From the NCBI RefSeq assembly GCF_013267355.1, contig NZ_CP053985.1, positions 5,828,001 through 5,892,000 of the forward strand: a stretch of 64,000 bases of DNA, written 5' to 3'. Below, piece after piece: positions 40,609 through 57,303 of this stretch. A program made the position numbers and the translations under genes. A model generated the notes under the pieces. It was not told the DNA's origin. It ran no database searches and saw only the letters and a list, made by a program, of their open reading frames with translations. The number at the start of each line of letters is the position of its first letter. Positions within the stretch are counted from its first letter, which is position 1. This stretch comes from Achromobacter pestifer (lineage in GTDB: Bacteria > Pseudomonadota > Gammaproteobacteria > Burkholderiales > Burkholderiaceae_B).

Positions 40609-40628
40609 GGTGTTCAAGAGGAGGGTAA

Positions 40629-41150: not shown

Positions 41151-41212
41151 ATTGCGGCACTAGCTGTAGACCGAAGAATGCCAAAGAATACACGCTGGTC
41201 GTAGTTTTACAT

Positions 41213-41548
41213 CTAACGCACTCTTGGTATGCCTGGGAGACGGTCCTCGTGAGACTCGCCCAGGAGGATTAAATCGAAGGTCATATAAAGCGTGCCCGCC
41301 ATCTGACTGACAAGGGCACTATCTTGCGAGTACGGGGCTTCGTTCTCAAGGATCTTGGCTGTGATGTAGAGGTCGTTGATGATATTTCGCGGCAACTGCT
41401 CAGCTCCCCTCAGTAGCCTCGCCAGCTCTCTGGATGCTTTATCCAGACGCTCGAATGCCTGCCGCTTGATCTCTTTGGTAGTTTGCAGCGCCATGACAAA
41501 TTCTGCTCCACTACTCCGCAAATCTGCTGCTACGTCTTCAATAGTCAT
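41213..41548 (-). CDS. hypothetical small helical protein
   Basis: 111 residues, predicted mostly helical: MTIEDVAADLRSSGAEFVMALQ, ERLDKASRELARLLRGAEQLP, and a C-terminal QMAGTLYMTFDLILLG. There is no signal peptide. The spacing and the good terminator downstream support a real gene. It faces the immunity-like cluster; whether it belongs to it is unknown. No family recognised. Confidence 0.65.
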   Translation of the reverse strand: MTIEDVAADLRSSGAEFVMALQTTKEIKRQAFERLDKASRELARLLRGAEQLPRNIINDLYITAKILENEAPYSQDSALVSQMAGTLYMTFDLILLGESHEDRLPGIPRVR

Positions 41549-41705
41549 AAATTCTCTCCAGACCCCAATGTTTGGTCAAGATATCCGGCTATCATTTTTA
41601 TCGCAATTTGTTGTCTGGCAGCCATTTTTTTCCCATCATGCTTCTTTCCTCCGGGAGAGCATACTCGACGGCATTAATTTCCCGTCTGTCTAGAGACGCT
41701 TCAAA

Positions 41706-42341
41706 TCAAGCGAAAGCGGGCTTGTCGCCATCGCTATTGGGCTTGTTCACCCCCACGTTGGCCCGCATCAGCCGTTCAGGGTGCCTCACCAGTTCCGTCA
41801 CCAACGCTGCCACGCTCTTGCGCGATACTTCGGTGCCCCTGAATGGCTCGTCCCGGCCGGTGATCTCGTAGTCCACTTCGTCCTCGTCCTGCAGCCAGGC
41901 AGCGCGCAAGATGGTGTAGTCGGTATCGGATGCCTCGATCAGATCCGCCGACTTGCGGTAAGGCGTCAGATACTGACCGATCTCGTGGCGGTTCCATTCG
42001 CCGAACTGACCAGGCACTTCGTCATAGATGCCCAGCGAGTTCACGATGATCAGGCGCTTGACGCCCTTGGACCTCATCACCGCCAGGATGTGCGCAGTCT
42101 GTTTGTCCACGTCCCCCGCGAGATTGGCATAGACCACATCCTGCCCCTCCATCAACTGGGGCAGCAGCTTCTTGTCCATCACGTCGCCGATGGCGATCCT
42201 GGCGTTGCTGGGTTCCGCGCCGGTGAGCTTCTTGGGATCGCGCACCAGCAGGGTCTGTTCGATATTCTGGCGTTCGCCCAGCATCCGTACGACCCAGCGG
42301 GCAATCTGGCCGCTCGCGCCCAGGATCAATACCTTGGTCAT
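41706..42341 (-). CDS. NAD(P)-binding oxidoreductase (NmrA/SDR-like)
   Basis: 211 residues. An N-terminal Rossmann motif [15 protein letters not shown] (~residues 8-22) is followed by NAD(P)H-binding protein features VYANLAGD and [13 protein letters not shown]. This YwnB/NAD(P)H-binding type includes quinone or flavin reductases and regulators. The start [11 protein letters not shown] is unambiguous. It lies 101 bases downstream of the alpha/beta hydrolase on the same strand, both divergent from a LysR gene. Confidence 0.88.
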
Positions 42342-42442
42342 GTTGTTCCTCTCCAAATGAATCGGCCCAGCCGTCTCCGGCAAGGCCGATGGCTTGTTCT
42401 CGCAGACAGCCGCGGAGCCGCAGGCTCGCGCTCTGCCCGCGT

Positions 42443-43363
42443 TTACAGGTTTTCCTGATAGAAGGGGATCAGCTTGGCCAACGCCTGGCCGACCGGCTCG
42501 GGCTTGTCGTACAGGTCGTAATGCGACCAGCCTTCGACCACTACCAATTCCTTCTTCTTCGAGGCGGCGCGGCCGATGATCTCGCAGCCGTCGCGGTAAG
42601 CGCCAAAAGCCCCGACCTGATCGCCGACCACCACCATCAGGGGCTGCGTCAACAAGGTCTCGCAAAGGTGAAAAGCATCCCAGCCTATGGCCGCGGACTG
42701 GTGCGAGAACAGCGCACGGTTCAGGCCATTGGGCGCGCGGCCACGGTCACTGCGGTAGTACTCGGTGGCGCCCAGCACGTCAATTTCCTTGATGCCCGCT
42801 TCCTTGGCAGCTTCGGGCGAAGGCGGCAGCAGGTCGTCCACGCGCAGCGCGGCCCCCCGGGCCTCTGCCGTGCGCTGTTTGGCCATGGCCTCCAACGCGC
42901 CGATCGGATCAAAGCCGCTGAAGCCTTCGCGCATCAGACGGCCATAGTTGGCGCCCGTGACGGTGCCCACGGCCTTGATCCGGCGCTCGGTCATGGCGGC
43001 GTTGATGGAGTACCCGCCGCCTCCGCAAATGCCCAGCACGCCGATGCGTTCTTCGTCCACATAGGGCAGCGTTACCAGGTAGTCGCACACCACCCGGAAG
43101 TCCTCGACGCGCAGCGTGGGGTCTTCGGTGAAACGCGGTTCGCCGCCACTGACGCCCTGGAAGCTGGCATCGAAGACGATAACGACGAAACCTGCCTTGG
43201 CCAGGGCCTCGCCGTAGACATTGCCCGAGGTCTGCTCCTTGCAGCTTCCTATGGGGTGCGCACTGATGATCGCCGGGTACTTCCTGGTTTTGTCGAAATC
43301 CGGCGGGAAGTGCAGGTCCGCCGCAATGTCCCAGTAGGTGTGCTTGATCTTGACGCTTTGCAT
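42443..43363 (-). CDS. alpha/beta hydrolase (dienelactone-hydrolase-like)
   Basis: 306 residues. The sequence [21 protein letters not shown] and the nucleophile elbow [12 protein letters not shown] (~residue 110) with Cys at the usual Ser position, a GxCxG motif typical of DLH-like and YcjY/UPF0255-type hydrolases; the late His lies in [12 protein letters not shown] (~280). It hydrolyses an ester or lactone of unknown identity. The start MQSVKIKH follows AGGAG well. It is divergent from a LysR regulator. Confidence 0.88.
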
Positions 43364-43521
43364 GACGCGCTCCTGGTAGGCGCTGAATAGGAATTGCCGG
43401 GCCACTTTTCTCTGAAGGCTCAAACCCGAGCCCGATGGATGCACTGTACGCCGAGCGTTTGGTTAGCCATAGACCTCAATCCGAACTACAGTAGTATTTC
43501 TAAATTGACAATGAGCGCTGC

Positions 43522-44457
43522 ATGGACCCGTCACTGCTTCCGTCCCTGGCCTGGTTCGCCCATGTGGCGCACCATCGCAGCTTCACCAAAGCCGCAGCTG
43601 AAATGGGGGTCTCCCGGGCCAATCTGTCGCAGAATGTGAAGGCACTGGAGCGCCGCTTGAACGTCAAGCTGCTGTACCGCACGACGCGGGACATGTCGCT
43701 CACCGAAGAAGGCCAGCGTCTCTATGACGTGTGGTATCCGGCATTGATCGCCGTGGAGCGCGCGGTACGCACCATGCACGACATGCGTGACGAGCCCTCA
43801 GGATTGGTGCGGGTGAACACCTCGCGCGTAGCGGCCAAAACGCTGCTGGAACCCCATTTGCAGGAGTTTTGTACGCGCTACCCCAGGCTCCAACTGGAAC
43901 TGGTCATGGACGATGCGCTGGCCAACATCGTGGCCGAAGGCTGTGATGCGGGCATACGCATAGGCGAGAGCCTGGCCGAACACATGGTGGCGGTGCCGAT
44001 CACGCCTGCGCTGGAAATGGCGGTAGTGGCCACGCCCGCATACTTCGAGCAACATGGTTCGCCCGCCACGCCGGCAGACCTGTCCCGGCACAACTGCCTG
44101 CGTTTCAGGCAGACCCGAGGTGCGATCCATCCATGGGAATTCACCTCGCCCGAGGCAGGCGGGCACACCTTCACCGTGGAGCCTCAGGGTCGCATCATCA
44201 CCAACGACGACGATGGAATGATCCGTGCCGCATTGCAAGGCGCTGGGCTCATGCAGCATATCGACATTGCTGTCCGGCAACACCTGGAGTCCGGCGCGCT
44301 GGTGCGTGTGCTGCACAACTGGTGCAAGCCTTTCGCGGGGTTCTATATTTATGCGCCGACTCGGGCGCAGATGCCTGCCAAGGTACGCGCGTTGATTGAT
44401 TTCTTGGTTGAGAAGCGCGAGGGCATGACAGGTCTGCGAAAGTCCCTTCTTAGGTAG
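43522..44457 (+). CDS. LysR family transcriptional regulator
   Basis: 311 residues. HTH: SLAWFAHVAHHRSFTKAAAEMGVSRANLSQNVKALE (landmarks FTKAAAEMGVS and NVKALERRL), followed by a LysR effector domain (~90-300). Of the DmlR-like subgroup. Divergent from the hydrolase and reductase genes by ~160 bases, which is AT-rich near its start; it probably controls them. Confidence 0.92.
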   Translation: MDPSLLPSLAWFAHVAHHRSFTKAAAEMGVSRANLSQNVKALERRLNVKLLYRTTRDMSLTEEGQRLYDVWYPALIAVERAVRTMHDMRDEPSGLVRVNTSRVAAKTLLEPHLQEFCTRYPRLQLELVMDDALANIVAEGCDAGIRIGESLAEHMVAVPITPALEMAVVATPAYFEQHGSPATPADLSRHNCLRFRQTRGAIHPWEFTSPEAGGHTFTVEPQGRIITNDDDGMIRAALQGAGLMQHIDIAVRQHLESGALVRVLHNWCKPFAGFYIYAPTRAQMPAKVRALIDFLVEKREGMTGLRKSLLR

Positions 44458-44688
44458 GAGCGGGGGCATCGAGTGGTTTGATCACGCCGACTGTTAGCCG
44501 AAGACCAAGGCAGTTAGGCTAAAGAAATTCGCTACCTATGCTGCGGAATTGCAGTCAGGCATCTTTATTTCCTCGATCTGGGGAAGGTTCGTATCGCCTA
44601 GAAGGATTGGATTGCTCCTTCCGGGCTAGATACATACATCGCGATAGCGAATACCCTACTTGTTCAAAAAATGAGTGGGGGGGCGATC

Positions 44689-45288
44689 ATGAAGAATTGG
44701 CTATGCGGTGCGGGCGTGATAGGCATGCTGCTGGCTGGTCCGGCTGCCGCGCAATACATCGCCACCTGGCAGGATCCTGCCGGAGTGTGGAAGGGGCCTG
44801 CGGCAAACCAACCAGGGACCGATCTGAATTTTGCGGAAGGGGCAGCGCATCGGGCCTGCTTGGATCGCGGTATTCCCAAGCTTTGGAACCGCGTAGCGAA
44901 AGTGACGGAGAAGGCTACTGGGAAGGTCGTACTGGAACTGGACTGCAACGCGGAGCGAGCTAAAACCAAGGAACGCCAGGCAGCAACCAACCCGCCGCAG
45001 GACACGACGATGTATCAGGCGTACTGGCAGGAACAATCCGGCCAGTGGAAAGCGGCGGTTACCGCTCCGCGCCATCCTGGGTTGCTACTCGCTTCCGCAA
45101 AAGGCTATGCATATGAAGCATGCAAGGATCGGGGCAACCCGAAAGACCTGAAGCTGGCATCGAAGGTCACGGAAAAGGACACGGGGAAAGTGGTCCTGGA
45201 ACTTGACTGCAACGTGGAGCGCGCGAAGTTAAAGGCTGGCAGCAACGCTGCAAAGCCTGGCCGGGATGCCGCGAGCGCTAAACAGTAG
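44689..45288 (+). CDS. exported protein with two internal ~70-residue repeats
   Basis: 199 residues. A signal peptide (MKNWLCGAGVIGMLLAGPAAA) ends near residue 22. Two copies of the same domain follow: residues ~23-92 and ~109-180, both with W near the start, an AxxACxDRGxPK segment and an identical-style end VTEKxTGKVVLELDCNxERAK. Each repeat has two cysteines, probably a disulfide. The DNA of the repeat ends is also alike, so duplication is fairly recent. No family recognised; the role is periplasmic and unknown. Confidence 0.75.
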   Translation: MKNWLCGAGVIGMLLAGPAAAQYIATWQDPAGVWKGPAANQPGTDLNFAEGAAHRACLDRGIPKLWNRVAKVTEKATGKVVLELDCNAERAKTKERQAATNPPQDTTMYQAYWQEQSGQWKAAVTAPRHPGLLLASAKGYAYEACKDRGNPKDLKLASKVTEKDTGKVVLELDCNVERAKLKAGSNAAKPGRDAASAKQ

Positions 45289-45373
45289 CGTCTCGCGACC
45301 CGCAGTTTGCTCATCGAGTTCAGGCGTCCTGCGTAGGACGCGTTCATTCTTCACGGCTGATGGATGAAAAAAG

Positions 45374-46015
45374 ATGCAAAACGTGCTTCCGAAACTTCTG
45401 CTGCTGGGCATTCTTTTGATGGGATCCCCTGGAAGTGCAACCGCGCAGCCTTCTGAAAAAACAAATGCCGATGCCAAGAGGGTTGCAACTGCGCTTCTAG
45501 CTATAGCGAGCCCGCAGAAAGAGACCAAGCAAGCGTTCGCTCAGCGTGTTGGTCCTAGCTTCAAGCGCCTGGTAGCAACCGAGACCATGACGCGAGTTGT
45601 GCTTGGACCGGCGTGGAGAACAATGTCACCGTCAAGGCAGGCAGAAGCCGTTGAACTTTATGGCCGGTTCCTGATGAGGACCCTCCACGGCGCCTTCGAA
45701 GGCCCGTTGCCCTCGCAGTTTGCGTTGGAGTCTGGGGAGATGTTCCGAAGTAAGCCCAGCTCGATTGCTGTGATCCAGATCACCTGCCTGGCGCTGAAGA
45801 TGGCGGACTGTATTTATTATTCGGCGAAATCGAAGGCCCGCGAGTTCACCATGGAGTTTCAACGTCTTTACATTGATGGTAGATGGCGGGTGGTCGAAAT
45901 TTATACGAGCGGGCTGTCCGTTCAGCAGACCTATCATTCAAGTTTCAGCTCCATTATCAAGTCCAGTTCGGTCGAAAAATTTCTGGAAAAGCTTCGCGCG
46001 CGGGTCGATAGCTGA
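45374..46015 (+). CDS. MlaC/Ttg2D-like periplasmic protein
   Basis: 213 residues. A signal peptide ends near SGSATAQP. The rest resembles the MlaC/Ttg2D fold: KETKQAFAQRVGPSFKRLVATE, RTMSPSRQAEAVELYGRFLMRT (the usual SPEQRxxFxxxFxxLL helix) and a C-terminal DGRWRVVEIYTSGLSVQQTYHSSF. MlaC shuttles phospholipids between the outer and inner membranes. No mlaDEF genes are near, so it is a stray paralogue. It follows the duplicated-domain protein on the same strand by 85 bases. Confidence 0.75.
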   Translation: MQNVLPKLLLLGILLMGSPGSATAQPSEKTNADAKRVATALLAIASPQKETKQAFAQRVGPSFKRLVATETMTRVVLGPAWRTMSPSRQAEAVELYGRFLMRTLHGAFEGPLPSQFALESGEMFRSKPSSIAVIQITCLALKMADCIYYSAKSKAREFTMEFQRLYIDGRWRVVEIYTSGLSVQQTYHSSFSSIIKSSSVEKFLEKLRARVDS

Positions 46016-46228
46016 TCTGGCCGCAACGCCGGCCATGTGGCCAAATTCGAAAGCCGTCCGGTCTGCTGCTGGCCGAATGATCTGCGCTTAGGAAACGGTA
46101 GTCGAACTACAGTTTCTCTATCTGAATGCTGTGGAAACTTTAGCCCGGCATCTATTTTATTATTTGCACAGCTAGGTGTGTCGTAGTGTTCCGATCTGAT
46201 TTCAGGCAATCGCCTAAATGGAGGACCT

Positions 46229-47002
46229 ATGCTTGAACGTAGCTATCTCAGCAACAGTTTCACCGTCTCGGATCCCGACGCGCGGTTGAGGCAAGCAAAC
46301 AATCTCATGGCTTTCGAAACGGCCAATGGAAAAATCCGAATAATACCGAAAGGAATTGTCGTACGTGTTGATGCGATTCAGCGCTTGCAGACTGGAGCAA
46401 AGAAGGTCGCACTGTTTGCGCATGCCGTCCGAGAAGATGGCGTGCCACTTGGCTGGACCTCGACAAGGAACTTCGACGGCGAGTTTATCAATGAGACACT
46501 CGATCTGCTCAAGCCCGGGGCTGGAAGTGGAAAGTTCGGTTCTAATGCCGCGTGGTCGCGTGGTGCTTATATAGGCCAGATTGACCTAGTCGAAATAGTC
46601 GACTCGACAATGGAGATTGAGCGCCTTTCTACGGATACCGTTTCACCATATCTGGAAATGGTCGGTAAGGCGAAGTCGTCGAGAGTGGCCCTCGCCATCA
46701 ATAGTGGATTCCGATCCTATCCGGAGCAGAAGATGCTGTGGGATGGGTATGACAAGCGGCTTCCCGGCTTCAATTTGGCCGCGAAGCCGGGCAACTCGAA
46801 CCACCAGAACGGGATCGCCATCGATATCGCTGTCGCCGGCGCGGACGGCAACGAGGTTTATGAGTGGCTAAAACAGAACGCGACCAAGTTTGGATTCGTT
46901 CGCACCGTCAGCCGTGAGCCATGGCATTGGGAATACGATCCCATACGCGCTGAGCAGGCGGTTCAAAATGGGACCTACAAGATTCCAGCTGTGAATGACT
47001 GA
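46229..47002 (+). CDS. M15 family D-Ala-D-Ala carboxypeptidase-like protein
   Basis: 257 residues. The zinc peptidase domain is C-terminal: GFRSYPEQ (R162), SNHQNGIAIDI (H192 and D199) and EPWHWEY (E230, H233), the full SxHxxGxAxD/ExWH set of VanY/M15 enzymes. The N-terminal ~120 residues look like an SH3-like wall-binding module (IIPKGIVVRVDAIQRLQTG). There is no signal peptide, which is unusual for a wall enzyme and fits a toxin, lysin or secretion-system-delivered effector. GGAGG precedes the ATG by five bases. Confidence 0.85.
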   Translation: MLERSYLSNSFTVSDPDARLRQANNLMAFETANGKIRIIPKGIVVRVDAIQRLQTGAKKVALFAHAVREDGVPLGWTSTRNFDGEFINETLDLLKPGAGSGKFGSNAAWSRGAYIGQIDLVEIVDSTMEIERLSTDTVSPYLEMVGKAKSSRVALAINSGFRSYPEQKMLWDGYDKRLPGFNLAAKPGNSNHQNGIAIDIAVAGADGNEVYEWLKQNATKFGFVRTVSREPWHWEYDPIRAEQAVQNGTYKIPAVND

Positions 47003-47058
47003 CAGGGCGAATCTCTGTGGAACTGCTTGTGAATCCGTAAGCAGAGAAAAGGTTCAGA

Positions 47059-48132
47059 CTACGGGCGGTCCCGCCCTAGGCAGCTTCCAGCTTTGCCATG
47101 CGCATGCGCCGTAGTTCGACCACCTGCTCCGCGCCAACAACCCCGAGCGCGCAACTGCCCACAGCCTCCATCCACGTCCTGCCCGGCGCTATTCCTCACC
47201 TTGGTCAGCACGCCACGGCTTTGCAGGGAGCCGACGATCTCGCGGATGCGCTCGGTATCGGGGCGCTGGTAGTCGTCACCTTCGAGACTATTGAAGGGAA
47301 TGACGTTGAGGACGCCGTATTTGCCCTTGAGCAGACGCACGACGGCATCGAGTTCGTCGTCGCCGTCGTTGATGCCCTTGAGCAGCGTCCATTGATACTG
47401 GATCGGGTAGTCGGTGTCGCGAGCGTATCTCTCGCCAAGTTCGATCAGTTCTTCTGGCGTGATTTTCGGTGCGCGTGGCAGCAGGTGTGCGCGCAGTTCG
47501 GCCTTGGTCGTGTGCAGTGACAGCGCCAGCGCGGGCTTGACGCGTTGTTGCGGCAGGGCTTCGAACACGCGCAGGTCGCCCACGGTGGAGAACACGAGAT
47601 TCTTATGGCCGATATTGCCTTCGGTGCCGAGCAGGTCGATGGCTTCGAGCACGTTGTCGAGGTTGTGCGCCGGTTCACCCATGCCCATGAAGACCACTTT
47701 CTTTACCGCGCGCAGACGCCGCGCCAGCACGACTTGGGCTAGGATTTCCATGCTCGTGACCTGGCGGATCAGGCCGCTCTTGCCGGTCATGCAGAAGCGG
47801 CAGCCGACCGCGCAGCCGACTTGGGTCGAGACGCAAAGTCCATCGCGCGGCAACTGCACGCTTTCCACCATCTGCCCGTCGGCGAGTTCGACCAGCAAGC
47901 GCGAGCCGTCGTTGCCGGCGTGTTCGGAGCGGACGCGGGCGAGGGCGTCCAGCTCTGCGGTCAAGGCGGGCACGGCATCGCGCAGCGCGAGAGGCAGAAA
48001 GTGCTCGGCGCTCCGCCGTCGCGTGCCGGTGTCGAGCGCTTGCCCTTGCAGCCAGACGCGCATGACCCGGCCACGATGGACGGGCAGGGCGCCGAGAGCG
48101 GCGAGGCGTTGGTTGAAGTCGGAGTAGCGCAT
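47059..48132 (-). CDS. RlmN/Cfr-family radical SAM methyltransferase, C-terminus frameshifted
   Basis: 357 residues as read. The radical SAM cluster is CAVGCRFC (C-x3-C-x2-C), MGMGEPAHN and the catalytic second Cys in DGGCGQL are present, so the enzyme core is intact. After GQLR the frame changes: the other frame encodes VVGAEQVVELRRMRMAKLEAA, the normal family end, with stop at 47076-47078. The break lies in a GC dinucleotide run (47146-47153) and fits a two-base loss. RlmN methylates A2503 of 23S rRNA and tRNA; this shorter form may be a paralogue. A run of nine C immediately precedes the ATG. Confidence 0.85.
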   Translation of the reverse strand: MRYSDFNQRLAALGALPVHRGRVMRVWLQGQALDTGTRRRSAEHFLPLALRDAVPALTAELDALARVRSEHAGNDGSRLLVELADGQMVESVQLPRDGLCVSTQVGCAVGCRFCMTGKSGLIRQVTSMEILAQVVLARRLRAVKKVVFMGMGEPAHNLDNVLEAIDLLGTEGNIGHKNLVFSTVGDLRVFEALPQQRVKPALALSLHTTKAELRAHLLPRAPKITPEELIELGERYARDTDYPIQYQWTLLKGINDGDDELDAVVRLLKGKYGVLNVIPFNSLEGDDYQRPDTERIREIVGSLQSRGVLTKVRNSAGQDVDGGCGQLRARGCWRGAGGRTTAHAHGKAGSCLGRDRP

Positions 48133-48442
48133 GGGGGGGGGTTTACCCTGCCGCCGGAACGGGCAGTCGGAGGGTAGATGGTCTCGTTGGCGACTACTGC
48201 CGGGATTCGAAGGTCGATAACTGCCGCATGGTCTCTTGTCGGCCATGACCAGCCGTTGACGTTTTCCCTGGAGGTGGACATTCCAAGCGTTACCCTGGGA
48301 GCCGCATTAGGGATTCGACAAGCAGACCCTCTGGGCGAGGTAACTTCCTTGTTCAGAGGGTTAATCCCTCTGCCATAATTCTAATATTTATCAATCAAAA
48401 TTCGGATGCGGTAGGTCCGTTTAATAACGGCGAGGACATGAC
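48133..48442. other. intergenic region with homopolymer tract
   Basis: About 310 bases. It starts with nine G (48133-48141; C on the coding strand) right against the methyltransferase start, after which the upstream frame stays open to 48246, so tract length could alter an N-terminal extension. The rest contains short frames without support. AT content rises toward the next gene. Confidence 0.45.
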
Positions 48443-49057
48443 ATGTGGATAAAGGCATTGACCAGATGGAGCCAGACTGCGTACGGCTTGGTGCACTCGG
48501 TCACTATCAGCAGCAAGATTGATTTGGGAAACATCAACCGAATAGGCAGTAGCATTACCGACGCGTTTGGTTGGCTTCCTAGGCAAGACCAATTTGACTC
48601 AAACGTCGAGCATCGTCCCTACAAGGAAGACGATTTTCGCCTTAATGATGGAGACGTATCGGCGGTGGTTTTAAATCTTAAAGCCAACCTCTTAAGCCTT
48701 CTCCTTGTTGACTTAGCCGCCCTGACCGACGAATTGCTTTCGTCAATTATGCAGGCGAAGGGTAAGAACCCGGAGACATATCCGTACCTGCGCAACAAAA
48801 CCAGGAATGTGACGTGCGCTCCTGAACAGGAGTGGGCACGCCGAGGTGTCCTAGAGTTAAACGTAATCCGAAACTGCATTGTTCACAATGATGGAAAGTG
48901 GAGTGATCGTGGACTAAAGGACATTGCGCCGCTTGTTAAAAATCTTGTCGCCAAAAATGGAGACCGCGTCGAGGTTAACTTTGAGGATGTATTCCGGTAT
49001 AAACGAGCAGTCCGCACATTGCTCAATCAAGCGGAGATAAAAGGTTTTGCGCCTTAA
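48443..49057 (+). CDS. HEPN-like protein (Rx4H), possible defence gene
   Basis: 204 residues. Mostly helical, with VLNLKANLLSLLLVDLAALTDELLSS and the HEPN-type motif RNCIVH (R-x4-H) in VLELNVIRNCIVHNDGKW (~residues 140-157). HEPN domains are ribonucleases or their helpers in toxin-antitoxin, abortive-infection and CRISPR settings. The AT-rich coding and position beside an integrase and a second HEPN gene suggest an acquired defence function; activity is not shown. Confidence 0.65.
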   Translation: MWIKALTRWSQTAYGLVHSVTISSKIDLGNINRIGSSITDAFGWLPRQDQFDSNVEHRPYKEDDFRLNDGDVSAVVLNLKANLLSLLLVDLAALTDELLSSIMQAKGKNPETYPYLRNKTRNVTCAPEQEWARRGVLELNVIRNCIVHNDGKWSDRGLKDIAPLVKNLVAKNGDRVEVNFEDVFRYKRAVRTLLNQAEIKGFAP

Positions 49058-49281
49058 CTCTAGCGTTACTCCGACAAGCCTGCATCGTGCCTGGCGACTT
49101 CACGGTATTTTGAACGTCCTGCTTTTCTCAATTATCGCTTTGGGTCGGAAGCGGACTACCGCAATCGCCTGCTTCCGGCCAGGGAGCAGCCTTTTAATTA
49201 ATCCCCGCGAACGACCGCGTCAGGCGAGAACCGGGCATTTGTCTACCCATATCTTGGGGCACAGGCACCTGAAGTCGTGCG

Positions 49282-49620
49282 TCAACTCCCGCCCTTCCCG
49301 AGCACTGCCTTTAGATAAGGCCGTAACTCGACCCACTCGATAACTTGGGATACGCGGCGAAGTTCGCTAAGCGTTTCTTTCATTGTCACCGGGTCGAAAG
49401 TCTCCGGAATAGCGAACGAAGCACCCTTTCTATCTGTCGCGTACCGATGGCGCTGGTCCAATACACCATGGAATGCGTCGGTATCTTCAGGAAACAGCTC
49501 CTCGTTCAGGGACACCAAAAACTGGCGCGGCACCTCGAAATGGTACCGAAGTTCTGGGTAAAGGCGTCGGTATTCTCGGTACAGCTTATTGAGGTTGTGG
49601 CCAAGGTGTTCATCCGAGCA
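49282..49620 (-). pseudogene. C-terminal remnant of an unknown gene
   Basis: About 110 codons of protein-like sequence read leftward: EHLGHNLNKLYREYRRLYPELRYHF, then EELFPEDTDAFHGVLDQRHRY and the end ELRPYLKAVLGKGG. Its upstream part is cut at ~49620, where sequence from an ATPase gene on the other strand begins; the longer frame there is the antisense of that ATPase. Charged and helical; no family recognised. Confidence 0.5.
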
Positions 49621-50085
49621 GGAACCTGCTAGTGGGGAGGAACCACACGGGCAAGACGACGCTGATTCGCAGCTTGTTTGAGACGCTAGGCGCGACGCCA
49701 CAGGGAAAGCTCGAACAATGGGACGAAAACGCTGCGTCGCTACTCGAGTTCTCAGTAGACGGCCGGCGCTACTTCGCCCTCCATCTGGCGCACCGTGCAA
49801 AGCAATGAAGGCACGTACGACGTCCCGGTAGTCATCGATTCGCCAAACCAGCAAGCGCAAGACGACTTTAACCTTCCTGCCGTCCTGAGTTTCATCGCGA
49901 AGGACTTGCCCGCCGGCATGCAACTTATCGTTGGCTTGGAAACACCTATCGACCTCAAGTTCGACCACGAGATGACGCTGACAGAGAGATACAGCATGCT
50001 TACCGAGGATGAGTGGGAGCAAACGGACAAGTTGATGGAGCCGTTGTTGAAGAAGATGTACGACGCGCCCCTTTCTCAGAGCTAA
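49605..50085 (+). pseudogene. P-loop ATPase remnant, internally deleted
   Basis: Two fragments of one ATPase. The first has a Walker A motif, NLLVGRNHTGKTTLIRSLFE, and stops at 49807. The second, in another frame from 49795, has VPVVIDSPNQQAQDDFNL (a Walker B/D-loop-like motif of SMC- or OLD-like ATPases) and runs to 50085. Only about 60 residues separate them, where intact relatives have several hundred, mostly coiled coil. The N-terminus is also missing. This looks like a deleted defence or plasmid-maintenance gene. Confidence 0.65.
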
Positions 50086-50259
50086 CGGTCGATATTCGTG
50101 CTCTGGCGTCGATTGCATAAATCTTTAGACGCAGCTTCGATAAAATGACCGCTTGCGCAAAGCGAACATTAGCCATGGAAACTCGAACGGCAGCTAGGGT
50201 CGGATAGCGCCCCTCCGTAGGCGCACACTGAATCTCCCTTTACTCGAAAGGAGATTGTC

Positions 50260-50886
50260 ATGGAATCCGCGAACGCCACCGTTGACCGTCGTGTGCCATG
50301 GAACAAGGGAAAGCTCACCGGGCAGAAGCCGCCCCTAAAGCTCCGAGAAATTTGGGCAATCCGAGTAAGACTTCAGATGGCTTCGAACATCCGGGAACTC
50401 GCGATGTTCAATCTCGCAATCGATAGCAAGCTTCGAGCGTGCGATCTCACGCGCTTGCAGGTGCAGGACATCCGCCATGGGAGCCACGTGGCCGTGAGAG
50501 CCACCGTCCTGCAACAAAAGATCCAGCGTCCGGTCCAATTCGAGATCACGGAGCAAACCCGTGAGAGCGTTGAAGCATGGATCGATGCACGAGGGCTAAA
50601 GTCGGCAGATTTTCTTTTTCCGAGCCGCTTGCATACGTCGCCGCATCTGTCGACGCGGCAGTACGCCCGGATTGTGCATCGCTGGGTCGCATCGATTGGC
50701 CTCGACGATACCGCATATGGCACCCACACGATGCGCCGTACAAAAGCCTCGTTGATCTACCGCCGGACGAAGAATCTTCGGGCGGTACAGCTGCTGCTCG
50801 GGCATACGAAGCTGGAAAGCACAGTTCGCTATCTGGGCATCGAGGTCGACGATGCTCTTGAGATGGCTGAACAAACCGAGGTTTGA
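50260..50886 (+). CDS. tyrosine recombinase/phage-type integrase, short form
   Basis: 208 residues covering only the catalytic domain. Active-site residues are R59 (SKLRACDL), K87 (VLQQKIQR), H156 and R159 (GTHTMRRTK), H182 (LLLGHTKLES) and nucleophile Y191 (TVRYLGI). The N-terminal arm-binding domain is missing, as in many small integrases of plasmids and ICEs. AAAGGAG precedes the ATG well. It marks the surrounding region as mobile; no att sites could be fixed by eye. Confidence 0.9.
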   Translation: MESANATVDRRVPWNKGKLTGQKPPLKLREIWAIRVRLQMASNIRELAMFNLAIDSKLRACDLTRLQVQDIRHGSHVAVRATVLQQKIQRPVQFEITEQTRESVEAWIDARGLKSADFLFPSRLHTSPHLSTRQYARIVHRWVASIGLDDTAYGTHTMRRTKASLIYRRTKNLRAVQLLLGHTKLESTVRYLGIEVDDALEMAEQTEV

Positions 50887-51135
50887 TGCGTCCTGGCCGG
50901 CGAGAGGTCGCTTGCCGGCCACTTCCGGACAGTCGATGGCGACGTCCATATCATCAACGAGCCCAGGTCAAATCAAACATCACCAATGTGCGCTCCAGCA
51001 CATCCGAACGGAGCACTCCCTGGCTACGACTCCACGTCCTCAGCCGCGGGTCGGTATCGCGGATGCGGGAGTTCGGAGGCGGCGATGGCTCCCGTGCATA
51101 TCGAAAGGCGCCGCGATCTCATTGCTTCACTCATT
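50887..51135. other. gap between integrase and HEPN gene
   Basis: About 250 bases downstream of the integrase and of the leftward HEPN gene. No terminator with a clear T-run, no RNA gene and no convincing coding sequence was seen. Confidence 0.4.
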
Positions 51136-52203
51136 TTAATTGCCGTTCTGTTCGCTTCTTGGCACGGAAGAGTCGAGTGCGGTAACAGTGGCTCGCTTGC
51201 GCCCCGGTCCATTTATCGCTAACCCTAGCTCTGTCGGGGAGGTCAGTGTTACCTCTCTTTGATCGGCACCATCGATTTGAATACTCCTGATTTCACGCGC
51301 GACACAGTAATCGGATCCGTGGAGATATATGATATCTCCCACGCGAAATTTTCCGGTTAGTTTCCCGATAATAACTTCCCTATTTTTTAGGCATTCATCG
51401 ATTTTTCCTCGTTTCGAAGCGATGCCGGCATCGATCAGTTTCTGCAACCCAACGAGCTGGACCCGCTCCGAAACCGCTTCGCAGATGGCACTAATGAAGT
51501 CGCAAAACTCAAATAGATAATCGATACCTGGAAGCTCGTCGATATCTATACTTCCATGTGCAGCGTCATTTCGATATTTTATTAGTTCTCGCATTTCATG
51601 ATCGGCTGAAGCGCCCAGTCGACCACCGGCCGCAAAAAAATCAACAACGCTTGGGTGCTGATCGATCCACGACGCGATGTTCTCGATACCGCAACCCGAG
51701 AACAAGCGAGTCAACTCCTGGATTCTGAGGTTCTGCTCCTGAACCAACAGCGCAAGTGGCTCGAGAATATATGGTTGACCTGTGAGTGCCTTTCCATACT
51801 GCTCAACCAAAGATCGCAGATCAAGGTGCGCATAACGTGGCCCGTCCTTCTTTTCAAGGATAGCGGAAATCCCACGCCTATACGCCTGCCTTACCTCTTC
51901 AGGAAAGGCAGAAAAAGGTAAATTCTTCTGCAGCAGACCGATGTGCTCGCGAAGCATCTCATGAGAGAACTGCTCATAAATAGCATAGATACGTGTAACC
52001 GTAGTGCAGTGCTCTATTAATCGCCACTCCACCCTGTCGGGCGCCTTCTCTGTGGAGAGAAGAGATTGGTCAAAGCATTTTGCATCGGCTTTGCAAAGAA
52101 ACGTTTTCTCATGGATAGTGCTCCGGATGACGTCTGACACCGAGATGTATTTTCTCAGTGCGTCGATGCGCTTCTGCGTTTGCTCTAAAAACGCGTTGTA
52201 CAT
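51136..52203 (-). CDS. MAE_28990/MAE_18760-like HEPN nuclease-like protein
   Basis: 355 residues. The HEPN-like core lies around residues 60-240; the motif R211-N-D-A-A-H216 (ELIKYRNDAAHGSID) is R-x4-H. The N-terminus DALRKYISVSDVIRS and YAIYEQFSHEMLREHI resemble the MAE_28990/MAE_18760 group. A C-terminal ~100 residues look beta-rich (VGDIIYLHGSDYCVAREIRSI). The ATG overlaps the stop of the DUF262 gene by one base (TGATG), so the two are coupled. Likely an RNase effector or its partner, activity unproven. Confidence 0.75.
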   Translation of the reverse strand: MYNAFLEQTQKRIDALRKYISVSDVIRSTIHEKTFLCKADAKCFDQSLLSTEKAPDRVEWRLIEHCTTVTRIYAIYEQFSHEMLREHIGLLQKNLPFSAFPEEVRQAYRRGISAILEKKDGPRYAHLDLRSLVEQYGKALTGQPYILEPLALLVQEQNLRIQELTRLFSGCGIENIASWIDQHPSVVDFFAAGGRLGASADHEMRELIKYRNDAAHGSIDIDELPGIDYLFEFCDFISAICEAVSERVQLVGLQKLIDAGIASKRGKIDECLKNREVIIGKLTGKFRVGDIIYLHGSDYCVAREIRSIQIDGADQREVTLTSPTELGLAINGPGRKRATVTALDSSVPRSEQNGN

Positions 52204-53390
52204 CACTGGCCTAGCAAGGAACCCAACATTTTGTCATAGAGGCTTATTCGTCCGAGGATATCCTGTTTAGTATTTCCGCGGCCGGTAAACGTCCCATCTT
52301 CATGCGCCGCGAACATCTGCTTGGTCGCTTCGATTACATCTGCCGAGCGCTTCCTTAGAGTGCCCCCTTCGTGCAACCGCGACGACAGGGCTACCATGAC
52401 CGCGTCATAAAAGGCTTTGTGCGGTTTGGGCTCCCACTTTTCATTGCCTGAGTTATAAGGTCGAAAGACCTTGTCCTGATAGATATCCTTTGCAAGATCT
52501 AATGTTTGATCATAAAGATCACGAAGAAAAGCCACGTCATCGTCCCCGAAGAAACTGGCCCTGCGCATATAGAGGTCTAGAAATCCCTGCATGCCATTGC
52601 GGTAATGGGATGCATGGCGCAACGCGAAAAAACGAAGCACGATCTCAGAATCGCCCATTTTTGCATACATCGGGTTATCCAAAAGCTCCGTGTTTGTTTC
52701 GATTTCATTGTCGACCCAACGCGGCAATCCCCATACGTCACGAAACTTATCCCATCGAGTAATTTCGTCTAGGAGATCGTTAAATTTACCGCGATATAGA
52801 GCGTTTCGAATTTCTTGCCGCTCTAACCTGATGCCACCTGTGTTCAATCTTTCGAATACCGTCTCGCGAAGGAAAGAAGCCTCCTCCTCGTTTTCGGTAG
52901 ACTCTTTCATCAACACAATTGACGTGATCGAGCGCCGATCAATACCAGCCTTGATCTTCTCGGGCAACGTCTTATAGCTGCGGCCGTTGAGCTCTGGCCA
53001 CATTTGAAGGCCCTTCAACTTGAAACTGTTGGAATAAAAATCTCTAATTGCAGTAATTCTTTGCTGGCCATCCATAACCTCATACGAATTGAAGTCTCTT
53101 TCATATAGAAAGACCGGTGGAACCGGTATGTTCATAATGAAAGACTCGATAAGCAAGCTCTGTTGCCTCGCATCCCATCTAGGACGTCTCTGGTAGAAAG
53201 GGCGCAAGTCCATGTAGCCAGGATCTTGAAGTTGATTGACAAATCCCGGCAGCTTCTCCCTATTCGTCTCTATGACGATGCGCCCCTCACCTCGTACGTA
53301 TCGCTCGTTGATAGCACGATCATCCAGGCGCTCTGGCTTGTCCTCATGATTGCCACTCCACATGTTTGACTCTGTTGGAGAGAGATTCAT
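52203..53390 (-). CDS. DUF262 domain protein (ParB-like nucleotide-binding)
   Basis: 395 residues. DUF262 landmarks: YMDLRPFYQRRPRWDARQQSLLIESFI (RPxYQR-x-xxW, ~60-80), IPVPPVFLYE, and the DGQQRITAI motif (D107-R111). Then ERLNTGGIRLERQEIRNALY (~170-190), typical of the group. The C-terminal DUF1524 HNH nuclease of GmrSD/BrxU is not seen, so the partner HEPN protein may supply the effector. DUF262 proteins bind NTPs and recognise modified DNA or phage features. First gene of a two-gene operon. Confidence 0.85.
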   Translation of the reverse strand: MNLSPTESNMWSGNHEDKPERLDDRAINERYVRGEGRIVIETNREKLPGFVNQLQDPGYMDLRPFYQRRPRWDARQQSLLIESFIMNIPVPPVFLYERDFNSYEVMDGQQRITAIRDFYSNSFKLKGLQMWPELNGRSYKTLPEKIKAGIDRRSITSIVLMKESTENEEEASFLRETVFERLNTGGIRLERQEIRNALYRGKFNDLLDEITRWDKFRDVWGLPRWVDNEIETNTELLDNPMYAKMGDSEIVLRFFALRHASHYRNGMQGFLDLYMRRASFFGDDDVAFLRDLYDQTLDLAKDIYQDKVFRPYNSGNEKWEPKPHKAFYDAVMVALSSRLHEGGTLRKRSADVIEATKQMFAAHEDGTFTGRGNTKQDILGRISLYDKMLGSLLGQ

Positions 53391-53792
53391 AGCAAAATCC
53401 TTTCAATAATCGTCGGCGCAGCGAGCGATGAGCGGCGGCGTTCAACTCCACCTGATGCGTCACATCATAACGCGGCTTTGGTTACGCCTAGTGTCCGTTT
53501 CGCCTTGGGGGCAGTCGCTGCGCCCTTTCCGTGCCGGTGGACGACTGCGGGTCGACTGCAGCCTATGGGGCGTGGTGACAGCGTCCGATTAGCGCTTCCG
53601 CGACTGTCTCTTCAGGGTCGGAATCGGTCGGTCAACAATGACGGCTGCCGGCTACGAATGGTCATTCGGAAGACATCGCGGAAACCGGTCATTCGCCTAT
53701 ATTGACCTGCACAGCCAAGAGCCGCTAGGATTGCAGGCATGACTATTAGCTCCAAATCCCTCTTTTCGCTGGTCCGCGCATGTTGTCAGAAC

Positions 53793-53816
53793 ATGCCGGG
53801 GGGAAACTGCGTCTAG
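53793..53816 (+). other. possible Cys-containing leader peptide
   Basis: ATG CCG GGG GGA AAC TGC GTC TAG encodes MPGGNCV just upstream of the cysS terminator hairpin. A Cys codon before an attenuator in front of cysteinyl-tRNA synthetase would fit leader-peptide control, but no good ribosome site is seen and so short a frame can arise by chance. Confidence 0.25.
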
Positions 53817-53847
53817 CAATAGCTACACGTTGAATCAATCGCCTCTG

Positions 53848-53877
53848 GCCGCCCGTTGCAAAACCGGCGGCTTTTTT
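53848..53877 (+). terminator. terminator/attenuator hairpin before cysS
   Basis: GCCGCC (53848-53853) pairs with GGCGGC (53866-53871), followed by six T. It lies only 35 bases before the cysS start codon and on its strand. Because no gene ends just upstream on the plus strand, it looks more like an attenuator of cysS than an ordinary terminator. An upstream GCCGG (53795-53799) could pair with CCGGC as an alternative fold. Confidence 0.7.
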
Positions 53878-53911
53878 GTTTTGCCTGCGCCTTTCGATAC
53901 GGAGAGAGTTG

Positions 53912-55315
53912 ATGCCACTTGCGTTGTATGACACCTGGTCGCGTACCGTGCGCTCGTTCACGCCAATCCACGCTGGCCATGTCGGCATGTATTGCTGCGG
54001 ACCCACCGTCTACGACCATGCGCATATTGGCAATCTAAGAACGTATGTGTTTGAAGACATTCTGCGCCGGGTACTCGTTCGGAACGGCTATGAGGTCCGT
54101 CACGTCGTTAATATCACCGACGTCGGTCATCTGACTTCGGATGCGGACGAAGGCGAAGACAAGATGGAAAAAGGTAGCAGACGGACCGGGGAGTCCGCAT
54201 ATGCCATTGCTCAGCGCTACACCGAGGCCTTCGTCGCGGATTGGCATGCCCTCAACTTGCTGGAGCCGACGGTATGGTGCCGCGCGACCGATCACATCGC
54301 CGAACAGATCGCGTTTATCGGCGAGTTGGACCGGTCCGGCTACGTGTACAGGACCAACGACGGTCTCTATTTCGACACAAGCAAACAGGATGACTACGGC
54401 TTTCTGGCCCGGCTCGACCGTGCCGGCCTGCAGGCGGGCAAGCGCGTAGCACTTGGCGCGAAGCAGAACATCACGGATTTTGCGCTATGGAAGTTCAGTC
54501 CGGAGGGCGTAGCGCGGCAGATGGAATGGGATAGCCCATGGGGGCGTGGATTTCCGGGCTGGCATATTGAGTGCTCGGCCATGTCGGCGAAACACCTCGG
54601 CATCTGGTTCGACATCCACTGTGGCGGAGAAGACCATATCGCCGTGCATCACAGCAACGAAATTGCGCAAACACAAGCGGCCCACGGCACTCGTCTTGCG
54701 AACTTCTGGATACACGGACATTTTCTAACACTCAATGCCGACAGCAAAATGTCGAAGTCGAGTGGGGATTTTGTTCGCTTGCAGACCTTGCGCAGTCGGA
54801 ACATCGATCCGCTTGCCTACCGTTACCTGTGCATGACAGCTCATTACCGGAGCAAGCTGCATTTCAGTTGGGTGTCTCTTGGTGCCGCGCAGACAGCCTT
54901 GAACCGGCTGCGGCATCTCTATTCCGGTTGGTCGGACGGTGGCCGCATCGATCCGGATTTCGCCGCGCGCTTCAATGCCGAATTGAATGATGACCTGAAT
55001 CTGCCGCGGGCATTGGCCGTGCTATGGGAACTCGTCAAGAGCGAGCTCCCACCTGCGACCTTGAAAGCGACTGTGGACAGCTTTGATCTTGTACTGGGCC
55101 TCGGGTTACGCGATTGGAACCCAGTTGCGTCTGATATTCCGGAAAGTATCCGGGTGCTGCTCGGTGAACGCGCTCAAGCCCGAGAGGCAAAGAACTGGGA
55201 TAAAGCCGATGAGATACGGAAGATGTTAAACACCCGAGGCTGGAGAGTCGAGGATGGCAACGACGGGCAACGCCTGACTGAAATCGCCACGCCCCTCACA
55301 GATATCGGAAGCTAG
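53912..55315 (+). CDS. cysS: cysteinyl-tRNA synthetase
   Basis: 467 residues, normal length. HIGH-type motif HAHIGN (~36-41) after MYCCGPTVYD with the zinc Cys residues, HxxC and WHIECSAMSAKHLG (~205), KMSKS-type SKMSKSSGDF (~275), and the C-terminal anticodon-binding helices ending RKMLNTRGWRVEDG. It charges tRNA-Cys with cysteine. Its base composition is nearer 57% GC than the chromosomal two-thirds, and it sits in an island beside an integrase, so it may be a second, acquired cysS; the housekeeping copy would be elsewhere. Start MPLALYDTW has GGAGAGAG upstream. Confidence 0.93.
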   Translation: MPLALYDTWSRTVRSFTPIHAGHVGMYCCGPTVYDHAHIGNLRTYVFEDILRRVLVRNGYEVRHVVNITDVGHLTSDADEGEDKMEKGSRRTGESAYAIAQRYTEAFVADWHALNLLEPTVWCRATDHIAEQIAFIGELDRSGYVYRTNDGLYFDTSKQDDYGFLARLDRAGLQAGKRVALGAKQNITDFALWKFSPEGVARQMEWDSPWGRGFPGWHIECSAMSAKHLGIWFDIHCGGEDHIAVHHSNEIAQTQAAHGTRLANFWIHGHFLTLNADSKMSKSSGDFVRLQTLRSRNIDPLAYRYLCMTAHYRSKLHFSWVSLGAAQTALNRLRHLYSGWSDGGRIDPDFAARFNAELNDDLNLPRALAVLWELVKSELPPATLKATVDSFDLVLGLGLRDWNPVASDIPESIRVLLGERAQAREAKNWDKADEIRKMLNTRGWRVEDGNDGQRLTEIATPLTDIGS

Positions 55316-55474
55316 TGATAACTGCATGGGCGCCGTAAAAAGGTGTCAGACGACAATTCTCATCGAGGTTCGGCAGCAGCCGTCGAAATCAAGAAAGACC
55401 AAGAGAGCGCAAGAGGTCGCGGGGGCGATCATCCGACGATCGGAGCGGAAACCGATCACCCCCGGCGAGGGCGT

Positions 55475-55843
55475 TCAGGCGGTCAGGAAGCGCAAGACTT
55501 CGGCCCAATCGTTAGTCGACAAGGCGACGTCCTCGTAGTCGCCAGCTTCCTCGTCGTAGCGCGAAACGCAGAAGCGCTGGCTCCTGCCGGATTCGCGGTC
55601 GGCATAGTTGGCGTAGTCGACATACACTTTCAAGCCGCGCGCCTCGTTCTCGAATGAAGGAGCTGCATCGATGTAGCTCGATGTGTCGAAATACCCTTCG
55701 GGTAGGGGCGGCAGGGTTGCTATGTCGAAGTCGGGAAATTCGCGGCGCAGTCGTTCAAGGTTCATAAAGGAAGCATATGGAGGATCGAAGCCTGGCATTT
55801 TACGTTGCTCAGTGTCAGTCGCCACGATGCCTCCCGAAAGCAT
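55475..55843 (-). CDS. hypothetical protein
   Basis: 122 residues. Acidic with the core PDFDIATLPPLPEGYFDTSSYIDAAPSFENEARGLKVYVDYAN and the end DYEDVALSTNDWAEVLRFL. Asp/Tyr-rich and soluble. Start is uncertain: ATG at 55843, or in-frame ATGs at 55798 and 55765. Unique small protein of this type are common on plasmids and islands. Function unknown. It is convergent with cysS. Confidence 0.6.
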   Translation of the reverse strand: MLSGGIVATDTEQRKMPGFDPPYASFMNLERLRREFPDFDIATLPPLPEGYFDTSSYIDAAPSFENEARGLKVYVDYANYADRESGRSQRFCVSRYDEEAGDYEDVALSTNDWAEVLRFLTA

Positions 55844-55879
55844 AACCTCTGGCCGGCTTTGCGCCGGCCAGGCCTGCGA

Positions 55880-56266
55880 TCAACCGCAGCGAATCGCAGT
55901 CATAACGTCCTTATCATCCACGATCAAATTCAAGCGCGTAGCGTTGTACTCCATCGTGACCAATTGCCCCGGACGCAGCATGCGTGCGGTGCTGCTCCCG
56001 CTGCGGCTGCGCAGGTCTTCCATGACGGACGGGGTGGCCTTTTGGCCGATTTGGGATTGCAGGGCAGCGGCGTCGCAGGTTTTGCCGCCGCCCATGGACG
56101 ACGACGAGCCGTAGGACGACCCGCCATAGCTGGTTCCGGCGTCAGCAGTAGACGAGGGGCTTGAGGAGCTGGAGGCTGTTGGCGCGCTGGGTGAGCGCGG
56201 GGCGCCGGTGTTGGCGCACGCGGTCAGGCTGGCGACCAGCAGGAAAGGGATCAGCTTTCGGATCAT
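55880..56266 (-). CDS. I78 family peptidase inhibitor lipoprotein
   Basis: 128 residues. Lipoprotein signal MIRKLIPFLLVASLTAC (lipobox S-L-T-A-C), a Ser/Gly-rich linker, then the I78 inhibitor domain (~65-128): CDAAALQSQIGQKATPSV and the diagnostic YNATRLNLIVDDKDVMTAIRCG. The family inhibits serine proteases in the periplasm. The ATG has GGAG at a normal distance. It lies at the right edge of the island region and is chromosomal in composition. Confidence 0.9.
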   Translation of the reverse strand: MIRKLIPFLLVASLTACANTGAPRSPSAPTASSSSSPSSTADAGTSYGGSSYGSSSSMGGGKTCDAAALQSQIGQKATPSVMEDLRSRSGSSTARMLRPGQLVTMEYNATRLNLIVDDKDVMTAIRCG

Positions 56267-56424
56267 GTAACGCTCCTTACAACAACACGTCTGAAAAAAG
56301 CCATGATAGACCAGCGCGGGCGCGCTGTGACCTGGGCCTGGCAGGGCCGCAAGCGGCATTCCTTACCTTGGCTTCGATGATCCAAATTTTGCATTGACAC
56401 TAAAGTTTCATGAGAATATATTTC

Positions 56425-56440
56425 TGAAACTATAGTTTCA
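56425..56440. promoter_or_regulatory. palindromic RpiR operator
   Basis: TGAAACTATAGTTTCA, a perfect 16 bp palindrome, 14 bases before the RpiR start. A half-site AGTTTCA recurs 30 bases upstream at 56404-56410. The TGAAA-TTTCA form is typical of RpiR/MurR binding sites, so autoregulation of the regulator and the operon is likely. Confidence 0.75.
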
Positions 56441-56454
56441 TAGGCGGGATCATC

Positions 56455-57303
56455 ATGACTTCGGTGTTGCAGGAGCGCATCCTCGCGCTGCAGGACAGCT
56501 TCACGGACAGCGAGCAGCGGTTGGCCAGCGTGACCCTGGAGTGCCTGGGCAATATCGCGGCCTATTCGGGGGCTGAGCTGGCGCAGAAGGCGGGCGTGTC
56601 CAAGGCGACGGCGGGGCGGTTCTTCCGGCGTCTGGGCTACGAGAACTTCAACGAAGTGCGGGCGCAGGCGCGCGATGAGGCCGATCGTGGGTCGCCGCTG
56701 TACGAGATGGCGGGCGTGCGTCCGCCGGACGCGACGGGCGATGCGCTGGCGGAGCATCTGGCCACCGACTTGCAGAATCTGGCGCAGACTTTCGAGCGCC
56801 TGGATAGCCGCGACGTGGAACGAGCCATCGAGCTGTTCGCCGGTGCGCGCCGCATCTGCATTGCGGGCTTTCGCAATGGGCGGGTGCTGGCGCAGTACGC
56901 CTGGGCTTTGCTGACGCAGCTGCGCGACGGCGTTGCGCTGGTGCCGGGCGCGGGTTTGAACCTGGCCGAGGATCTGGCGGATCTGGGGCCTGACGACGTG
57001 TTGCTGGTGATGGATTTCCGGCGTCGCGTCACGCTGCTCAAGCCCATCGTCGAACATGCGAACCGGGTGGGCGCGAAGGTCGTGGTGCTGACCGATCCCA
57101 CCGCCACCGAATTGCCCGCGCGCTCGGACTTGGTGCTGCGCTGCGTGAACAGCGGCGCGGCCGTGTTCGATTCCTACGTCGCGGCCACCAGCGTCATCAA
57201 TCATCTGTGCTCGGCCCTGGCCCGGAAACTCGGGGCGGCCGCGCGCGAACGTCTGCAGAACATAGAACGCCTGCACGAACACTACGGCGACTTGCATCGC
57301 TGA
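56455..57303 (+). CDS. MurR/RpiR family transcriptional regulator
   Basis: 282 residues. An N-terminal HTH_6 (~1-75) with GAELAQKAGVSKATAGRFFRRLG, then a SIS sugar-phosphate-like binding domain (~125-260) with ICIAGFRNGRVLAQYAW and VVVLTDPTATELPARSDLVL. RpiR proteins with a SIS domain often sense phosphorylated or amino compounds. It heads the diaminopropionate operon, 19 bases before dpaL, with a perfect palindrome in its promoter. Confidence 0.93.
   Translation: MTSVLQERILALQDSFTDSEQRLASVTLECLGNIAAYSGAELAQKAGVSKATAGRFFRRLGYENFNEVRAQARDEADRGSPLYEMAGVRPPDATGDALAEHLATDLQNLAQTFERLDSRDVERAIELFAGARRICIAGFRNGRVLAQYAWALLTQLRDGVALVPGAGLNLAEDLADLGPDDVLLVMDFRRRVTLLKPIVEHANRVGAKVVVLTDPTATELPARSDLVLRCVNSGAAVFDSYVAATSVINHLCSALARKLGAAARERLQNIERLHEHYGDLHR

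Follow-up and report, generated by a model that had tools for sequence, protein, structure and literature searches.

A conserved DUF262–HEPN gene pair in Achromobacter pestifer, a candidate anti-phage module whose HEPN protein carries a predicted translation-factor-like barrel

Two coupled genes in a 64-kb stretch of the Achromobacter pestifer genome (the whole stretch analysed, hereafter the window) encode a DUF262 protein and a HEPN protein, and form a conserved linked two-gene module without an HNH nuclease. Judging from the predicted folds and from related systems, we propose, at a probability of roughly 0.6, that this is an anti-phage module in which the DUF262 protein would control a HEPN RNase, and in which a C-terminal barrel of the RNase may direct it to tRNA or the ribosome.

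Table 1. Features of the DUF262–HEPN locus (positions in the window)
Feature	Position	Strand	Description
DUF262 (GmrSD_N) gene	53390..52203	-	395 aa; PF03235; predicted sensor/regulator
HEPN RNase-like gene	52203..51136	-	355 aa from ATG; PF18735 and PF18737; predicted effector
DGQQR motif, DUF262 residues 107-111	53058..53072	-	invariant among relatives
Shine-Dalgarno-like GAAAGGA 5' of the DUF262 ATG	53398..53404	-	read from sequence
TGATG, DUF262 stop/HEPN start overlap	52201..52205	-	read from sequence
HEPN domain, residues 62-246	51466..52020	-	Pfam match range
R-N-D-A-A-H, R211 to H216, putative HEPN active site	51556..51573	-	R211/N212/H216 invariant
C-terminal beta-barrel, residues 262-343, translation-factor domain-II-like	51175..51420	-	AlphaFold2 strands, Foldseek, profile comparison

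The ATG of the HEPN gene shares one base with the DUF262 stop codon, the overlap that a first-pass annotation of this DNA had described; an alternative GTG start lies one codon 5' of this ATG and would raise the residue numbers by one. A scan of the locus for promoters and terminators was uninformative: it gave 2 promoter-like sites (shuffle mean 2.4) and 4 terminator-like sites (shuffle mean 2.7). In Pfam the pair matches only PF03235 and HEPN models, and neither protein has a match to HNH or DUF1524.

The first-pass annotation had also read the upstream protein as a DUF262 protein with DGQQR and without HNH, and this reading holds: GmrSD_N (PF03235) matches it with E 2.2e-24 (87.1 bits against a cut-off of 33.2), and it is the sole match to this model at E<=0.001 in the 7.18-Mb genome. 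VMDGQQR is present in all 81 DUF262 proteins compared (A. pestifer and the best 80 of 340 loci), and D107 to R111 are invariant in an alignment of 52 rows. The AlphaFold2 model (pLDDT 87.9) has no match in the PDB at E<=1e-3 by Foldseek; the best are ParB-CDP (2.2e-3), BrxU (3.8e-3), Noc (7.9e-3) and another ParB (8.2e-3). PadC and sulfiredoxin rank lower, and the likeness to ParB, BrxU and Noc agrees with the ParB/Srx fold reported for DUF262, a family for which excerpts of PMC10952713 give nucleotide binding as a property. By model and analogy, the A. pestifer protein is predicted to be an NTPase-like, nucleotide-binding sensor of ParB/Srx fold. Searches of PDB sequences with each of the two proteins singly had no significant match (best E 0.69 and 0.72).

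The downstream protein scores above the Pfam cut-offs of two HEPN families, HEPN_RiboL-PSP (PF18735; E 4.9e-11, 43.3 bits against 28.4) and HEPN_MAE_28990 (PF18737; E 4.1e-7, 30.8 bits against 26.8). Its R-x4-H motif lies at R211/H216, where it had been placed beforehand, with numbering from the ATG; R211, N212 and H216 are invariant in 52/52 aligned HEPN proteins, which are full-length picks from A. pestifer, the 74 downstream ORFs described below (best 80 of 340 loci) and 3 plasmid or phage ORFs. On this basis we predict that the protein is a putative RNase effector. An alternative would place the nuclease in the other partner, the DUF262 protein being a ParB-like DNase and HEPN an accessory RNA- or DNA-binding subunit in a type-IV-like DNA restriction system; this would suit the term 'ParB nuclease' applied to the partner in a 2013 survey (excerpts of PMC3710099), and the occurrence of DUF262 in GmrSD, as its GmrS half, and in BrxU (excerpts of PMC10952713). 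We regard it as improbable, since neither protein has an HNH domain and the invariant R-x4-H suggests that catalysis sits in the HEPN partner.

Relatives were collected from GTDB genomes with the DUF262 protein as sole query and the best 80 of 340 were taken; a downstream ORF was defined as one on the same strand, of at least 100 aa, starting from 150 bases before to 400 after the DUF262 end. Such an ORF is present at 74 of these 80 loci, and in 4 of the 6 others the contig ends within 200 bases. The linkage check across genomes had been set beforehand by the first-pass annotation, and 73 of the 74 downstream ORFs proved homologous to the A. pestifer HEPN (phmmer, E<=1e-5). The motif RN-x2-[ASC]-H occurs in 70 of the 74, being absent from three short ORFs and from the one non-HEPN ORF (L056), which is methyltransferase-like by sequence; the intergenic gap is -4 to +9 bases in 64 of the 74 pairs.

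The DUF262 and HEPN distance matrices of 51 pairs are correlated (Spearman 0.80, phylogeny not removed), and 0 of 2000 permuted matrices reach this value (best 0.37); such a correlation indicates joint inheritance, not contact. Mean identity over these pairs is 54% for DUF262 versus 32% for HEPN. In comparisons with three near relatives, where synonymous sites approach saturation, DUF262 has a pN/pS of 0.21-0.23 and HEPN one of 0.40-0.45. The predicted sensor is thus better conserved than HEPN, which departs from the classic arms-race pattern.

The first-pass annotation had missed a C-terminal barrel of translation-factor type, which marks the subtype. The AlphaFold2 model of HEPN (49 alignment rows; pLDDT 92.8, pTM 0.90) is helical up to residue 258 and then has seven strands across 262-343. 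When this predicted structure was compared with the PDB, Foldseek returned 33 matches at E<=1e-3, of which 31 have titles naming EF-Tu, eIF5B/aIF5B or the isolated U32 peptidase C-terminal domain; the titles of the other two, 3vmf ('Archaeal protein') and 8vvr_HC (a ribosome complex chain), are uninformative. Many of the long alignments have a high rmsd, presumably because they extend into the helical part; it is the matches to small domains that are informative. The barrel matches EF-Tu with E 1.4e-4 and the U32 C-terminal domain with E 2.0e-4, and aligns with the latter (4he6/4he5) at 2.3 A over 82 columns with a target TM of 0.72-0.77.

A barrel profile matches 64/64 relatives of at least 320 aa and 3/10 shorter ORFs (best 80 of 340 loci), a count that is partly self-matching, as 47 of the 64 matched relatives or A. 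pestifer built the profile. No single segment among 47 gave a significant HMM match: in Pfam, EF-Tu D2 (PF03144) was matched by 3 segments (best 0.013), EF-Tu D4 and U32_C by 1 each and unrelated families also singly, down to 0.012, and the A. pestifer segment itself scored 0.12 for EF-Tu D2 and 0.16 for MS_channel_2nd. A search of PDB sequences with the profile brought up 7 matches at E<=10; a V-type ATP synthase chain ranks first (0.45), and 5 of the 7 are eIF5B (E 0.53-0.87).

Profile–profile comparison was performed with hhalign, with z scores taken against 60 column shuffles. The profiles were built from 24 chosen loci for EF-Tu D2 (9/10 of one set and 15/29 of another), 24/26 loci for U32_C (2 were discarded, their excised segments containing stops) and 24/30 loci each for the S1 and MscS controls. 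Locally, the barrel scored 43% with EF-Tu D2 (E 2.5e-4, 37 columns, z 7.9) and 24% with U32_C (47 columns, z 4.9), against z 0.8 for S1 and 3.0 for the MscS beta domain; as a yardstick, EF-Tu D2 and U32_C score 40.5% with each other. In global mode the values are 4.7% for EF-Tu D2 and 2.9% for U32_C, and the ranking is the same (z 7.4 for EF-Tu D2, 5.2 for U32_C, -0.6 for S1 and 1.8 for MscS). A smaller set of 9 D2 domains gave 10.7%, with a score of 19.3, the highest among 150 shuffles being 15.4. A translation-factor domain-II type of fold is therefore well supported for the modelled barrel, and homology to EF-Tu domain II is, from the sequence profiles, plausible, not proven.

To place the barrel in the wider family, a DUF262-family profile was run against 398 genomes of the same phylum (E<=1e-10); it matches 54, A. 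pestifer included, and the loci of the best 30 (29 besides A. pestifer) were examined. A downstream ORF is present at 28 of the 29, and the partners are 16 HEPN-clan proteins with R-x4-H, 11 NsnB-like ATPases and one protein (L131) assigned to neither class. All 16 HEPN-clan partners have a Pfam HEPN match, with marginal scores in L127 (only HEPN_Swt1, 26.9 bits against 27.5) and L121 (28.5 against 28.4); among the NsnB-like partners 7/7 tested match PADLOC NsnB, and 4 were judged from N-terminal sequence only. The barrel profile matches 1/16 of the HEPN partners (L111).

A tree of 59 DUF262 proteins, in which barrel-partner rows were thinned to 29 and L114 and L131 left out, sorts by partner type. 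All barrel partners fall to one side of a single branch, unstarred at support 93/70; another branch (100/99) holds the NsnB partners, and short-HEPN partners occur in several lineages. The plasmid, phage and G303 rows labelled as barrel partners match the barrel profile with E 7.6e-13 to 8.9e-4; among short partners, L083, L090 and L095 give E 2.6-3.6 and L082 no match. L090, a PD-T4-2-type DUF262, has a branch length of 3.14 and an unsure place in the tree. Barrel rows come from seven named phyla, Pseudomonadota, Cyanobacteriota, Bacteroidota, Acidobacteriota, Thermodesulfobacteriota, Armatimonadota and Uhriibacteriota.

Small barrels of the domain-II fold serve several roles, and the fact that the barrel tracks one DUF262 group is what would be expected of a docking surface for DUF262. 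There is an appreciable chance, somewhat below even, that the barrel is such a surface, or a structural or dimerisation domain, unrelated to tRNA and ribosomes; this concerns the barrel only and is compatible with the other readings of the pair. Its best fold matches argue for a different role, being translation factors and the U32 peptidase C-terminal domain, both from RNA-handling families, and the modelled resemblance suggests a hint at the HEPN target. A bolder and decidedly more tentative idea is that of a widespread DUF262 branch whose HEPN gained a barrel, so that a DNA or NTP sensor would be wired to an RNase docking on tRNA, on the ribosome or in the place of EF-Tu. If true, translation shut-off would be triggered via a restriction-type sensor. 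The barrel makes the target of the HEPN arm in DUF262 systems a testable question.

The adjoining integrase pointed out by the first-pass annotation is a tyrosine recombinase of 208 aa (50260..50886, +; PF00589, 3.2e-20), which converges with the HEPN gene, with ~250 bases between its end and the HEPN stop. G+C content in 2-kb windows is 48-62% from 38 to 57 kb versus 63-70% elsewhere in the window, and this low-G+C stretch of ~19 kb (38000-57000), with VanY-like, integrase and hypothetical genes, is probably partly foreign DNA. The pair does not sit in a dense defence island, and ARAGORN finds no tRNA genes within the window. A 204-aa ORF ~2 kb from the pair (48443-49057, +) contains RNCIVH, an R-x4-H motif, and weakly matches the PADLOC model RTasHEPN (E 0.018); it is a possible second HEPN protein. 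RTasHEPN, a model of retron/DRT-linked HEPN, also matches 20/52 of the HEPN relatives (best 3.9e-6).

A third gene was sought among 139 flanking ORFs at 21 chosen loci (from the best 80 of 340 relatives), without a control set, so that no enrichment is claimed. The matches listed include DNA_methylase 2, AAA_21 5 and OLD-like TOPRIM 2 (best 25 of 161 families) and, in a second scan, the mad3 model 4 and one MTase_II model 3 (best 25 of 192). No fixed third operon gene is seen among them, and a conserved one, such as the DNA methylase of the 2013 survey, was rejected for these loci.

The pair is patchily distributed. Matches were found in 3 of the 61 related genomes searched, which include A. 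pestifer's own and 36 congeners: its own, G303, which has a full-length relative (51%), and G314, whose DUF262 is divergent; the close form is present in 1/36 congeners. Some DUF262 relative occurs in 182/72,556 plasmid and 27/50,697 phage records, and among the 7 plasmid records and 1 phage record in which pairs were examined, related pairs are carried by plasmids from E. coli, Klebsiella, Shewanella and Tabrizicola and also occur in the record of a Vibrio phage; two of the partners, those from Shewanella and Tabrizicola, are annotated as 'MAE_28990/MAE_18760 family HEPN-like nuclease'. On Nostoc plasmid p057_H (L088) the HEPN partner is split into ORFs 5135-5539 and 5552-6166, absent from the listed annotation, and is probably a broken copy. 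On A. baumannii plasmid pAB1 (L089) the ORF after DUF262 (4814-5317, 167 aa), likewise absent from the listed annotation, lacks R-x4-H. Two congeneric genomes carry different DUF262 and HEPN pairs (L093, 5792-7063/4746-5795; L095, 3684-4937/4897-5697) beside the same two genes of the chromosome, an arrangement that resembles a defence hotspot.

Two coupled genes with a toxin-like HEPN, in a low-G+C region adjoining an integrase and with related pairs on plasmids, would also suit a toxin–antitoxin or addiction system in which DUF262 neutralises the HEPN toxin and the two genes together keep mobile DNA stable, defence being secondary or absent. Typical antitoxins are small, unlike the DUF262 regulator, which is large, highly conserved and NTPase-like, with fixed pocket motifs. 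As, in addition, the related PD-T4-2 defends against T4 (excerpts of PMC9519451), we consider addiction unlikely.

Under the anti-phage reading that we prefer, the DUF262 protein, with a nucleotide-binding fold of ParB/Srx type and without any known nuclease domain, would hold and/or license HEPN. Infection, signalled perhaps by phage DNA or by a change in NTPs, would flip the DUF262–HEPN state, upon which a HEPN dimer with paired R-x4-H motifs would cut RNA and thereby halt the phage or the cell; the barrel, with its EF-Tu-domain-II fold, may steer cleavage towards tRNA or the ribosome.

Among known systems, Menshen, which we take to be denoted by the PADLOC labels NsnA, NsnB and NsnC, shares the DUF262 protein, the best PADLOC model for that of A. 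pestifer being NsnA (8e-64). The second gene of Menshen is the NsnB ATPase, whereas that of A. pestifer is HEPN, and identity with Menshen was rejected on this ground; NsnB has weak partial matches only across the A. pestifer genome, and NsnC has none there, but its control also matched nowhere, so that its absence does not follow. As NsnA is the best model though the partner is not NsnB, we infer that automated callers may misname or miss this subtype. The type IV enzymes GmrSD, BrxU and SspE also contain DUF262 with a DGQQR-type motif, and the A. pestifer model resembles BrxU, but they carry a DUF1524/HNH nuclease where the A. pestifer effector is HEPN. Type III-A CoCoNuT (PMC11090510) is a predicted RNA-targeting defence system whose helicase has a small barrel best matching EF-Tu domain II, according to excerpts of that paper; it is a McrBC-related helicase-nuclease, and 'DUF262' is absent from the text of PMC11090510.

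The first-pass annotation had called the pair a little-described defence module. A conserved, HNH-less, patchy and plasmid- or phage-borne pair with a defensive cousin stands; 'little-described' fails for the architecture, because excerpts of PMC3710099 and PMC10952713 already list DUF262 or ParB with HEPN. Anantharaman et al. (2013, PMC3710099) predicted the same HEPN families with the same kind of partner from gene neighbourhoods, MAE_28990 being 'In operon with a ParB nuclease and DNA methylase genes' and Ribo L-PSP-HEPN in an 'operon with ParB'. In excerpts of that survey these two families come without a reported experiment or an EF-Tu-like domain, whereas the A. pestifer HEPN has the barrel; 'EF-Tu' and 'beta-barrel' are absent from its main text, and its 'novel beta rich domain' belongs to MAE_18760, not MAE_28990. 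PMC10952713 (2023), in the part available, places PD-T4-2 under both DUF262 and HEPN PF18735. In the literature searched, which took in few subscription papers or preprints, only these two papers contain both 'DUF262' and 'HEPN', and no title names a HEPN–translation-factor fusion.

The closest tested system is PD-T4-2 (Vassallo et al. 2022, PMC9519451), also a DUF262 and HEPN pair (PADLOC components A and B), which, by excerpts of that paper, protects E. coli against T4, T4 plating on ECOR65 rising once it is deleted. The A. pestifer DUF262 matches PD-T4-2_A at 5.5e-34, more weakly than NsnA, and identity was rejected at the B component: no PADLOC model matches the A. pestifer HEPN at E<=1, and PD-T4-2_B matches 2/52 relatives at E<=0.1 (best 0.0075). 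The PD-T4-2_B-type reference partner (L090, found with the PADLOC model in 1/299 genomes) has 169 aa and no barrel, whereas the A. pestifer HEPN has 355 aa and a barrel; Pfam has no match to this reference at E<=1, which suggests that the effectors of the two pairs may be distant. The DUF262 and HEPN pairing itself is thus already described, with PD-T4-2 as a tested cousin, and the barrel-bearing subtype seems to be a distinct, undescribed variant of it.
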